NCBI GenBank assembly: GCA_951812755.1
Contig: OX638329.1
Coordinates: 4,596,522-4,660,521 of the forward strand
Length of the DNA stretch: 64,000 nt
DNA from: an uncultured Latescibacterota bacterium
Lineage (GTDB): Bacteria; Latescibacterota; UBA2968
Reading direction: 5' to 3'
Made by a program: the position numbers and the translations under genes. The notes under the pieces are model-generated. The model saw only the letters and a list, made by a program, of their open reading frames with translations. It was not told the DNA's origin and made no database searches. Below are positions 57,794 through 60,392 of the stretch, piece after piece; position 1 is the stretch's first letter, and every line of letters begins with the position of its first letter.

Positions 57794-57837
57794 AAAAGAA
57801 AGCGGCCTATGTCTCTCGACATAGGCCGCTTTCTTTT
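57794..57837 (+). terminator. Very strong intrinsic terminator
   Basis: A 20-bp perfect stem (57794-57813 with 57818-57837) and 4-base loop TCTC. The arms end in A4 and T4 runs, so it can act in both directions. Lies 12 bases after the HpcH gene and 18 bases before element A. Confidence 0.9.
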
Positions 57838-57944
57838 AGACCGATTTATCGGATAGCCCGTAAAACCCACTCGCAGAGAGCTTCAGCGTTGGGTCGCATG
57901 GCGAAGGGCTTACTAATCTATGGGTTGGTGCTTTAGCATGGCGG

Positions 57945-57965
57945 CACATTGTTCAAGACAATGTG
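57945..57965 (+). repeat. Left-end hairpin of element A
   Basis: 8-bp stem CACATTGT/ACAATGTG around loop TCAAG. Element B has the same loop and stem length with different bases (60225-60245), and all three changed pairs stay complementary. Confidence 0.75.
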
Positions 57966-58001
57966 GGCGGTGATTCAACAAGAATCGTCCTTTAGTTTTG
58001 C

Positions 58002-58030
58002 TTGACAAAAAAGGCATATAAGTATATATT
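58002..58030 (+). promoter_or_regulatory. Promoter of tnpB
   Basis: TTGACA at 58002-58007 and TATATT at 58025-58030 with a 17-base spacer. The -10 box ends 6 bases before the ATG, so the transcript would be nearly leaderless; no Shine-Dalgarno is visible. TATATA at 58023-58028 (15-base spacer) is an alternative. Confidence 0.5.
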
Positions 58031-58036
58031 TTTATT

Positions 58037-59161
58037 ATGGTTAAATCATTTAAATACAGATTGCGTCCGACCAAAAAGCAAGAGAAAGTCTTGCTGGCGC
58101 ATATTGACGAATGTCGCATTCTCTACAATCAACTCCTCTGCGCCAGAAAACAAGCATGGAAAAACGAGAATAAGTCTCTGTCTCAGTATCACCAGACTAA
58201 TACGATACCATTGCTGAAGCAACAGCATGTTGAATTTACGCAAGTATATAGTCAGGTATTGCAGCAAGTATCAGCAAGAGTCGATTTGGCATTCAAAGGT
58301 TTCTTTCGCCGCAACAAAAAGAGGGCAAAGACTGGCGAGAAAGCAGGCTTTCCCAGATATAAGGGACAGAATCGCTATGATTCTATCACCTATCCTCAGT
58401 TTTCCAACGGATGCCGCTTAGACCACAAGGGCTTGCGATTGGGCAAAATAGGCTGTATTCGCGTTGTCCAGCATAGACCTCTCGGCGGCATTCCAAAGTC
58501 TTGCACTATCACTCGCACAGCGACGGGTAAATGGTATGCATCTATCCCTTGTGATATTGGCGACATAAGTAAGAAAACCGATACTAACTCTGCCGTTGGC
58601 ATTGACGTGGGTCTCAATTCCTTTGCTGTAACCAGTGACGGACAGGCAATAGCCAACCAGCGATTCTTTCGCAAAGAAGAAAAGACGCTTGCCAAAGCAC
58701 AGCGCAAATGGGACGCGGTGAAAAAAAGACCTAAGACTGACGCCGTAAGAGAAAAGCGTCGTAAAGTAATTGCCAGAGTGCATGAGCGTATCCGTAACAA
58801 GCGACATAACTTTGCCCATCAAGAATCAAGAAAAATGGTCAATCGCTACGGCTTCATAGCCGTCGAGAAGTTGAAAGTTCAAAAGATGCAAAAGAACGGG
58901 CGATTGTCTAAATCAATAGCAGACGCAGCATGGTCCCTGTTTCGGCACTGTCTCGAATACAAAGCGGAAGAGGCTGGTATTGGATTCAAGGCCGTCAAGC
59001 CTGAATACACCTCACAAGATTGCTCGGCATGCGGGCACAGAGAAAAGAAAAAACTCTCTGATCGTGTGCATCATTGCAAAAAATGTGGCTATACGGCAGA
59101 CAGAGACCTCAATGCTGCCATAAACATATTGACGTTGGGGCTACAACGTCAGGCGGTTTGA
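58037..59161 (+). CDS. tnpB: TnpB, RNA-guided nuclease of IS605 family
   Basis: 374 residues. The RuvC catalytic acids are in place: Asp in GIDVGLNSFAVTSDG (about 190), Glu in FIAVEKLKVQKM (about 277), and Asp in YTADRDLNAAINIL near the C-terminus. The zinc ribbon is CSACGHREKKKLSDRVHHCKKCG. The N-terminal helical domain with KSFKYRLRPTKKQE and QVLQQVSARVDLAFKGFFR is complete, so the nuclease appears intact. TnpB cuts DNA next to a TAM, guided by an RNA from the element's right end, and biases inheritance of the element. It overlaps the start of that RNA. Confidence 0.93.
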   Translation: MVKSFKYRLRPTKKQEKVLLAHIDECRILYNQLLCARKQAWKNENKSLSQYHQTNTIPLLKQQHVEFTQVYSQVLQQVSARVDLAFKGFFRRNKKRAKTGEKAGFPRYKGQNRYDSITYPQFSNGCRLDHKGLRLGKIGCIRVVQHRPLGGIPKSCTITRTATGKWYASIPCDIGDISKKTDTNSAVGIDVGLNSFAVTSDGQAIANQRFFRKEEKTLAKAQRKWDAVKKRPKTDAVREKRRKVIARVHERIRNKRHNFAHQESRKMVNRYGFIAVEKLKVQKMQKNGRLSKSIADAAWSLFRHCLEYKAEEAGIGFKAVKPEYTSQDCSACGHREKKKLSDRVHHCKKCGYTADRDLNAAINILTLGLQRQAV

Positions 59162-59202
59162 CCGCCAAGAAGCCCAACCGCTTTAGCGTTGGGAGTAGTC
59201 AC
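59131..59202 (+). ncRNA. Candidate omega-RNA 3' scaffold of element A
   Basis: Three successive hairpins overlap the end of tnpB and the right end: GACGTTG/CAACGTC with loop GGGCTA (59131-59150), GGCGGT/ACCGCC with loop TTG (59152-59166), and CCCAAC...GTTGGG with an inner GC pair (59173-59193). The last is followed by AGTAGTCAC. In known systems the guide is the sequence just beyond the right end, here from 59203. Element B preserves the first loop (GGGCGA) with a changed but paired stem. The true 5' end of the RNA probably lies further upstream inside tnpB. Confidence 0.6.
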
Positions 59203-59366
59203 AGGGCATTCTACAGGCTGGCGTGGTTGACCAGGCGGTGTTCGCGCAATAAGGCTCGTATAATTAAAGCGGAACCTTTATTTACAAACCGATACTCTCC
59301 GACCCAAACCCTACAGTCCTGCGATAGTAAAGTACATCTGCGTCCGGTATGTCTTCTGTCGGCCAC

Positions 59367-59798
59367 TTATTCACCAGGATGCTCCATCCAGCACGCGATA
59401 ACCTCAGACTTAGGACGAGTCTTGCCCTGAATGGCATTTTCGCAATAGTCATCCCCGTAGTAGGATACCGAACCGTCAGGATGGAAGTTGATCAAAAGCT
59501 CGAACTGTGCTGTCTTCCAATGCAAATCTATGCTACCCTCACTGGCGGGCAGAATCCGCACCTGCGTTGCTACTTCAGATTTCTCCGCCAGTTCATACAA
59601 AAAAGCAGCAGCACCCTCTATAGTTTGTTTACAGTAGGCAGGAGCACTTTCCCCATCCCAATCATCTTCCAAAGCGAGTAAGCGCTCCTTTGCCTCATCA
59701 ATAACCTGAACAGGAGTGTCCAGAGTCAGTTGATACTTTTCACGCATTTGGGCGGACATAGCAACCTCATCTTTTGGTGAAATTGTTACTGAGGCCAT
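59367..59798 (-). CDS. Conserved hypothetical protein between the two IS elements
   Basis: 143 residues from ATG 59798. The middle reads LALEDDWDGESAPAYCKQTIEGAAAFLYELAEK, then EGSIDLHWKTAQFELLINFHPDGSVSYYGDD. I recall this WDGxGAP...DGSIxxxW...L.I.DGxxxxY pattern from small proteins of unknown function, often near toxin-antitoxin-like genes, but cannot name a family. The frame upstream to 59846 runs into element B's end and is not used. It starts 35 bases from that end, so a transcript or guide RNA reading out of element B would cover its start. Confidence 0.6.
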   Translation of the reverse strand: MASVTISPKDEVAMSAQMREKYQLTLDTPVQVIDEAKERLLALEDDWDGESAPAYCKQTIEGAAAFLYELAEKSEVATQVRILPASEGSIDLHWKTAQFELLINFHPDGSVSYYGDDYCENAIQGKTRPKSEVIACWMEHPGE

Positions 59799-59832
59799 GA
59801 AGCACTTCTTTTGGTGCGCTTTGATGTGTGAT

Positions 59833-60331
59833 GTGACGACTCCCAACGCTAAAGCTCTCTGCGAGTGGGCTTCTACGGATTCTCACCGATGGCATATCGC
59901 CCTATGCCGTGTTGTGCCAGCAGTCTCTATGGTCGGGGCGTCTCCGCCAAAAATTTCCGACACTCTTTACTGCGACGCAACGCAATACGTTTTACCCTGT
60001 ACACGATTCGGCACAAGAACGCCCTACGTATTCTTTAGTGTCAAAGAGCGAGACGACAAAAGCCCTGCAATGGGGCTACCCGAAACCAACGGCTTCAGAC
60101 CAAAGCAGGGCTTATAGACACAAAAAAGTGCCGTTTGGTTATTTCGGGTAGCATGAGTGATATAGTAAAATTGGAGAGCAGAGGCAAGTGGAATTAGCGG
60201 ACGAGTCTTAATGATTCACCGCCCCATATCGCCTTGAGCGATATGCCCAATGCTAAAGCACCACACCATAAATTCTAAGCCCTTCGCCATGCGACCCACA
60301 CCTGAAGGTTGTGGGTTTTACGGGCTTGTCA
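59833..60331 (-). mobile_element. tnpB-less IS605/IS1341-type element B, inverted relative to A
   Basis: About 499 bases. On the minus strand it begins with a left-end block (60331 downward: AGCCCGTAAAACCCAC, then TGGGTCGCATGGCGAAGGG, GGTGCTTTAGCAT, the 60225-60245 hairpin, and ACTCGTCC) that aligns with element A. It ends with a right-end block: hairpin with loop GGGCGA at 59891-59908, AGAAGCCCACTCGC...GCGTTGGGAGTCGTCAC. No tnpB frame lies between, though a 9-bp stem (60060-60068 with 60105-60113) does. It looks like a non-autonomous derivative that TnpB or TnpA from elsewhere could act on. Confidence 0.7.
60225..60245 (-). repeat. Left-end hairpin of element B
   Basis: On the minus strand CATATCGC-TCAAG-GCGATATG, 8-bp stem and the same 5-base loop as in element A. 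Three stem pairs differ from A (CG to TA, TA to CG twice), each compensated. Confidence 0.75.
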
Positions 60332-60332
60332 G

Positions 60333-60367
60333 AAAAAAAACCGGCCCGTGTCGAGAAACATTGGCCG
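60333..60367 (-). terminator. Terminator of the 60393-61427 Gfo/Idh gene
   Basis: On the minus strand CGGCC (60367-60363) pairs with GGCCG (60346-60342), with further inner pairing, and is followed by eight T (60340-60333). Element B starts immediately after the T run. Confidence 0.75.
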
Positions 60368-60392
60368 CTTTTATTATTTTGTAACGCCTGTA

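Follow-up and report, generated by a model that had tools for sequence, protein, structure and literature searches.

The window, a stretch of 64,000 nucleotides from an uncultured Latescibacterota bacterium (contig OX638329.1, positions 4,596,522 to 4,660,521, forward strand), contains two related elements of the IS200/IS605 kind in inverted orientation. Element A carries an intact tnpB gene and no tnpA. Element B has no tnpB and is a candidate stand-alone guide-RNA element. The features of both elements are listed in Table 1. The host genome, G000, is a single contig of 6.53 Mb, and the genomes used for comparison are mostly Candidatus Latescibacterota.

The boundaries of A follow from alignment with the orthologous empty site of genome G004, TTTAC-AAGACACTCTACGGG, which corresponds to TTTAT-(element A)-AGGGCATTCTACAGG in the window. 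The element coordinates proposed in an earlier note on this region hold overall, but the empty sites move the left end of A from 57855 to 57850 and that of B from 60331 to approximately 60332. The TnpB of A has every Pfam domain of its family, with the RuvC D/E/D residues, the zinc finger and the OrfB_IS605 fold, and it matches the ISDra2 TnpB structures 8bf8 and 8h1j over the full length (E 2e-52). The empty sites and the table of left ends show that the ends form hairpins and that insertion takes place on the 3' side of a short motif, with no duplication of the target. TnpB-only elements are common in the IS200/IS605 superfamily. The other tnpB sequences of G000 are two full copies (79% identical), one distant TnpB and one remnant. 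The guide of A begins at 59203, and the guide of B, ATCACACATCAAAGCG and onwards, begins at 59832.

The RNA strand of B contains, in this order, a bistable leader, a boxA GCUCUUUGACA, a domain with stems P1 and P2 and a pseudoknot, an omega-RNA scaffold and the right end. There is no long open reading frame (ORF) on this strand. Decay of a tnpB gene was considered and rejected, as the RNA strand has no tnpB frame and the interior matches modules other than tnpB. Rfam covariance models, including HEARO, yielded no credible match in B or its relatives, only chance matches below threshold. Neither interior motif of B was found in viral contigs.

Table 1. Positions of features in the window and, in the last row, in the host genome.
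Feature	Position	Strand	Basis or remark
Insertion motif (TAM) of A, TTTAT	57845..57849	+	empty site in G004/G005/G006
Element A, intact tnpB element, IS200/IS605 kind, no tnpA	57850..59202	+	empty-site comparison
A left-end imperfect hairpin	57866..57893	+	sequence; position same in all copies
A subterminal hairpin CACATTGT-TCAAG-ACAATGTG	57945..57965	+	covariation in 10 copies
A sigma-70-like promoter TTGACA-17-TATATT	58002..58030	+	11/12 consensus matches
tnpB, 374 aa, catalytic D/E/D and zinc finger	58037..59161	+	Pfam OrfB_IS605, Cas12f1-like_TNB
A omega-RNA stem 1, loop GGGCTA	59129..59152	+	overlaps tnpB 3' end
A omega-RNA terminal hairpin, UUUA loop	59173..59193	+	sequence
A 3' tail AGTAGTCAC	59194..59202	+	UAG(U) pairs with stem-1 loop
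Element B, candidate tnpB-less stand-alone guide-RNA element	59833..60332	-	homology to empty sites ends exactly at 59832
B left-end hairpin CCCACAACCTTCAGGTGTGGG	60295..60315	-	sequence
B subterminal hairpin CATATCGC-TCAAG-GCGATATG	60225..60245	-	covariation
Possible B promoter TTGCCT-17-TATATC, weak	60159..60187	-	by eye; not called by consensus scan
B bistable leader, long hairpin versus terminator-like AAGCCCTGC..GCAGGGCTTTT	60057..60152	-	homologous to type-2 tnpB leaders
B boxA GCTCTTTGACA	60039..60049	-	identical to same-genome 23S-leader boxA
B boxA and P1/P2/pseudoknot head domain	59976..60052	-	model R1; covariation
B omega-RNA stem 1 GGCATA-GGGCGA-TATGCC	59891..59908	-	
B omega-RNA terminal hairpin	59842..59869	-	inside 42-nt right-end match, 95%, to copy L003/L189
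B 3' tail AGTCGTCAC	59833..59841	-	UCG(U) pairs with loop (G)CGA
Minis (L011, L010, L018, L017, L019)	G000:C1 482481, 697583, 1318926, 4161547, 6257707		

Covarying structures at the element ends

Three blocks from the ends of A indeed recur inverted in B, as the earlier note had described: 57855-57870 and 60311-60326 (100%), 57881-57912 and 60276-60307 (91%), 59180-59203 and 59832-59855 (96%). The subterminal hairpins of A and B have identical TCAAG loops and 8-bp stems; three base pairs differ and all three are compensated. This pairing is conserved in ten distinct copies of the hairpin from relatives, with 98.8% of cells paired and two-sided changes in six of the eight pairs. None of 500 shuffles reaches the observed covariation score, and in slid registers only 19-45% of cells are paired.

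At the right end, stem 1 (loop GGGCTA in A, GGGCGA in B) covaries across eight distinct types. Its loop and the 3' tail of the element form a covarying pseudoknot: CUA/UAG in A, UUA/UAA in L003 and CGA/UCG in B. One copy, UUA/UAG, retains the pairing via G-U. The CGA/UCG class is also present in a TnpB element of G009 (L107/L184). Taken together, stem 1 and the pseudoknot have 96% of cells paired and two-sided changes in 8 of 13 pairs; again none of 500 shuffles reaches the covariation score, and slid registers give 28-47%. The pseudoknot of B is altered on both sides despite the absence of tnpB from this element. The alignments had been divided into blocks manually, which works in favour of the structures described, and the independent covariation events are few. 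The slid-register and shuffle controls argue against the cutting being the full cause of the pairing.

The right end of B is analogous to the omega-RNA (right-end element RNA, reRNA) of ISDra2. There, too, a 3' scaffold at the right end contains stem 1, the loop of stem 1 base-pairs with the nucleotides that immediately precede the guide, and the guide comes from the flank; a late hairpin near the guide has a UUUA tetraloop, the same as in the terminal hairpin of A (PMC10097598). In B, the corresponding pairing joins the stem-1 loop to the 3' tail that borders the guide. However, omega-RNAs of the ISDra2 type are usually processed from, or overlap, the tnpB transcript, whereas B has no tnpB and carries an additional boxA/pseudoknot head.

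G000 also contains five minis of about 40-52 bp resembling palindrome-associated transposable elements (PATE). In these, a left end is fused to the right-end hairpin after TTAT, with no omega-RNA scaffold.

The boxA head, its scaffolds and the leader

The head module was found without tnpB in G044 (L128) and G041 (L160). Model R1, built from B, L128 and L160, gives a weak match to L127 (15.6 bits, E 0.12 over 136 kb) and revealed a further locus, L180, from another genus (36.4 bits, E 2e-5). Thus five tnpB-less loci of Latescibacterota, two of them (L127 and L180) outside the model, contain the boxA/pseudoknot head. All five heads consist of GYUCUUUGNCA followed by P1, the junction, P2 and the P1-closing UAAA, and have a short pseudoknot between the junction and a loop. 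Across the five loci 98.7% of cells are paired, 8 of 15 pairs show two-sided changes, and none of 500 shuffles reaches the covariation score. Compensatory changes preserve the head across two families of the class, and within it boxA varies least.

The boxA-like motif is present in all five stand-alone RNAs. For comparison, the gamma-proteobacterial boxA consensus is GYTCTTTAANA (PMC5725501). Searches for the ribosomal RNA (rRNA) operon, boxA and the guides covered about a quarter of G000 (1.65 Mb). The rRNA operon was located (L278); its 23S leader, TGCTCTTTGACAATTGAATATGG, contains an 11-mer boxA identical to that of B, and its 16S leader contains GTTCTTTGAAA. The exact 11-mer occurs three times in the searched part, compared with 0.7 expected from shuffled words. 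This count alone is weak, and the case rests on the position of boxA in all five RNAs and on the identity with the 23S leader. The boxA of L180 is not independent, since R1 itself contains boxA, but the scaffold of L180 is. Among the cis tnpB elements examined, none has a boxA match on its coding strand.

The 3' parts of these RNAs match right ends of different tnpB types, and thus one head is joined to three types of TnpB scaffold. The L180 scaffold is similar to the right end of the tnpB gene L201 of G009 (83% over 154 nt, E 4e-42), those of L160 (85% over 98 nt) and L128 (71%) to L194 of G044, and that of L127 to A (76% over 68 nt). The scaffold of B is homologous to the cis omega-RNA of L003, with 95% identity over the last 42 nt and weaker similarity upstream. 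In 100 shuffles, eight matches passed the same threshold, so the weakest of these rows are not evidence.

Several candidates were not counted as members. The R1 match in L182 lies inside a pyruvate kinase gene, L181 is boxA-like with no scaffold behind, and the BLAST matches L129 and L130 were dropped as lying in coding DNA. L181 (G046:C1:1855080-1855186) has a boxA-like GCTCTTTGACA behind a promoter-like sequence, a weak head match and no omega-RNA scaffold; possibly it is another boxA-led RNA.

In G004 and G005 the first module of B also forms the 5' leader of another type of tnpB gene, ahead of the start codon. G009 has a second element built like B (L127/L048; 72% over left end and leader). 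By folding, the leader has a terminator-like hairpin and a mutually exclusive pairing of its loop with downstream sequence, of about the same stability. In B, the long hairpin and the terminator-like hairpin ending in a T-run have energies of -31.4 and -30.3 kcal/mol, and near-equal energies are also seen in L127, L134 and L148. The consensus fold of seven leaders is the terminator form, with five compensated pairs. The loop may form a pseudoknot with the downstream sequence, or the terminator-like hairpin may form as the alternative. Promoter-like boxes are seen in L127 (TTGACT/TATCTT) and L180 (TTGACG-17-TATACT).

The second-type tnpB leaders L134, L135, L136 and L148 (G004, G005) can form a terminator and an antiterminator of nearly equal energy immediately upstream of the start codon. 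Diverged versions are found in L145, L144 and L157. The leader is a candidate attenuator or riboswitch of tnpB; no Rfam match was found in the loci searched.

Element B as a candidate guide-RNA gene

Element B is likely to be a non-autonomous element of the IS200/IS605 type whose product, a stand-alone guide RNA, serves a TnpB provided in trans and is protected by antitermination of the rRNA type. This reading is based on sequence comparison: a delimited element, a covarying scaffold, a head that five loci share across three scaffold types, and a boxA identical to that of the 23S leader. Transcription, antitermination, loading of TnpB and cleavage are predicted from these. Transcription would start at the promoter inside the left end and would cross first the terminator/antiterminator leader and then the boxA/pseudoknot head. 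The mRNA of tnpB is presumably shielded from Rho by translation, whereas a guide RNA without tnpB would be unshielded. The boxA would load the NusB/S10 antitermination complex, as in rRNA, and Rho would spare the ribosome-free transcript; this type of antitermination is proposed by analogy with rRNA operons and, as reported by Stringer et al., CRISPR arrays, which use boxA for protection from Rho. The RNA would continue through the omega-RNA scaffold and over the right end, so that flanking DNA becomes the guide. A TnpB acting in trans would then bind this scaffold and cleave B-free copies of the locus, which would favour B being retained or recopied. Present-day mobilisation would need a TnpA from outside.

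The earlier note had suggested that the secondary structures are under selection and that B may be the source of a guide RNA which the neighbouring TnpB uses in trans. The sequence gives good support to selection and to a possible guide RNA acting in trans: there is covariation in three independent elements, the B pseudoknot has changed on both sides, and four other tnpB-less loci are built alike. The neighbouring TnpB, that of A, is one candidate partner; the pseudoknot class of B, CGA/UCG, is that of the G009 element and not the CUA/UAG of A. Other candidates are L002, L003 and a lost TnpB with a CGA/UCG pseudoknot. The description of B as a tnpB-less relative of A stands as far as tnpB is concerned, but B also has a boxA RNA head of its own and the loop/tail pseudoknot.

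Several observations speak against this reading. Nearly all tabulated left ends are preceded by TTAT, TTAC or TTAA (TTAY/TTAA), but the TAM position of B is TTTT. B occurs once in G000, its promoter is weak by consensus, its stem 2 has only 3 bp, and its stem 1 lacks two outer pairs. No Y1 transposase (PF01797) was found in G000. The guides of A and B have no match elsewhere in the 1.65 Mb searched, and thus no second site for the guide of B was seen there. Both L128 and L160 lack a recognisable left end. Positions 99-116 of the L128/L137 RNA contain an 18-nt match (94%) to tnpB coding DNA, perhaps a trace of origin from a tnpB element; given this match, some stand-alone members may be decay products.

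One alternative is that B is a deletion derivative similar to miniature inverted-repeat transposable elements (MITEs), moved by a Y1 TnpA in trans; the hairpins would then be only ends of single-stranded DNA, and the RNA-like interior a passenger or a product of decay. The end hairpins are indeed conserved as DNA signals, scaffold-free minis combining the left and right ends exist at five loci, tnpB fragments are abundant, and a relative, G001, has a tnpA-like ORF (found by eye) beside another tnpB type (L146). However, about 50 bases separate stem 1 and its loop from the end, a region in which the minis have no counterpart, and yet the loop and tail of B have changed together. Besides, recognition by TnpA needs no boxA head, and this head recurs with three scaffold types. 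This explanation is unlikely. It is still less probable that an expressed, TnpB-bound RNA of B has a regulatory, decoy or silencer-guide role and does not drive cleavage at empty sites. The bistable leader suggests regulated expression, and L128 and L160, without an obvious left end, may be fixed host genes; on the other hand, the RNA ends, like cis omega-RNAs, with the right end next to a flank that varies, which points to an element-specific guide, and no conserved guide was found. Least probable is that the boxA-like 11-mer and the head derive from a captured fragment of ribosomal leader and play no part in antitermination: R1 gives a weak match across the 23S leader (15.9 bits, E 0.014 in 20 kb), but the head has compensatory changes across two families of the class, with boxA as the least variable stretch.

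Guide RNAs without an adjacent nuclease gene are already known in kind. The orphan omega-RNAs of IscB are of this type and resemble B in having a guide scaffold with no neighbouring nuclease gene. The same holds for a part of RAGATH-18 RNAs, 64% of which adjoin IS607 TnpB and 36% do not (PMC11061315). In a literature search limited to papers available without subscription, we found no report of boxA or a common head in orphan omega-RNAs, and no paper joining TnpB and boxA in substance. CRISPR arrays use upstream boxA antitermination (Stringer et al., as cited in PMC7862264). The boxA of rRNA leaders and CRISPR arrays, as outlined in PMC5725501 and PMC7862264, lies upstream of a long untranslated RNA, as in B, whereas the boxA of B is on a single guide RNA borne by a transposon. 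MITE and PATE derivatives of IS200/IS605 share with B the gene-free ends and the dependence on TnpA in trans; B differs in carrying a structured RNA gene, and the short minis of G000 are the plain version.

The boxA shared with the ribosomal RNA suggests that B represents a route, not described so far, by which a transposon produces guide RNAs without the nuclease gene. If so, guide RNAs of Cas12 ancestors can be independent genes with their own signal of processive antitermination, an intermediate that would plausibly lie between omega-RNA linked to tnpB and the stand-alone guide loci of CRISPR. Satellites may then exploit TnpBs as MITEs exploit transposases. It would also offer a simple rule for searches (a boxA and a scaffold, but no tnpB) and a way to test the uncoupling of nuclease and guide. 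A broader proposal is that a portable boxA/pseudoknot head has repeatedly been joined to different TnpB scaffolds, producing a class of satellites and genes that supply guides in trans via rRNA-type antitermination. This is quite conceivable, with doubt slightly outweighing belief; such a head would be a parallel, in the TnpB world, of boxA before CRISPR arrays.

Other features of the island and the genome

A 159-aa ORF without Pfam matches (59367-59846, minus strand) lies between A and B. In G002, G004, G005 and G006 this ORF is present at the orthologous interval and both elements are absent, whereas G001, G003, G007, G009 and G010 lack the whole island. The ORF is an accessory gene, kept in four of the ten genus relatives examined and absent in five. 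A terminator hairpin flanks the island on both sides (57794-57837 and 60333-60383); relatives without the island have one copy.

A 532-aa OrfB-like protein is encoded by three equally scoring copies in G000 (G000:C1 161098, 2748107 and 3751195; L199, L202 and L203). This element was possibly active recently.
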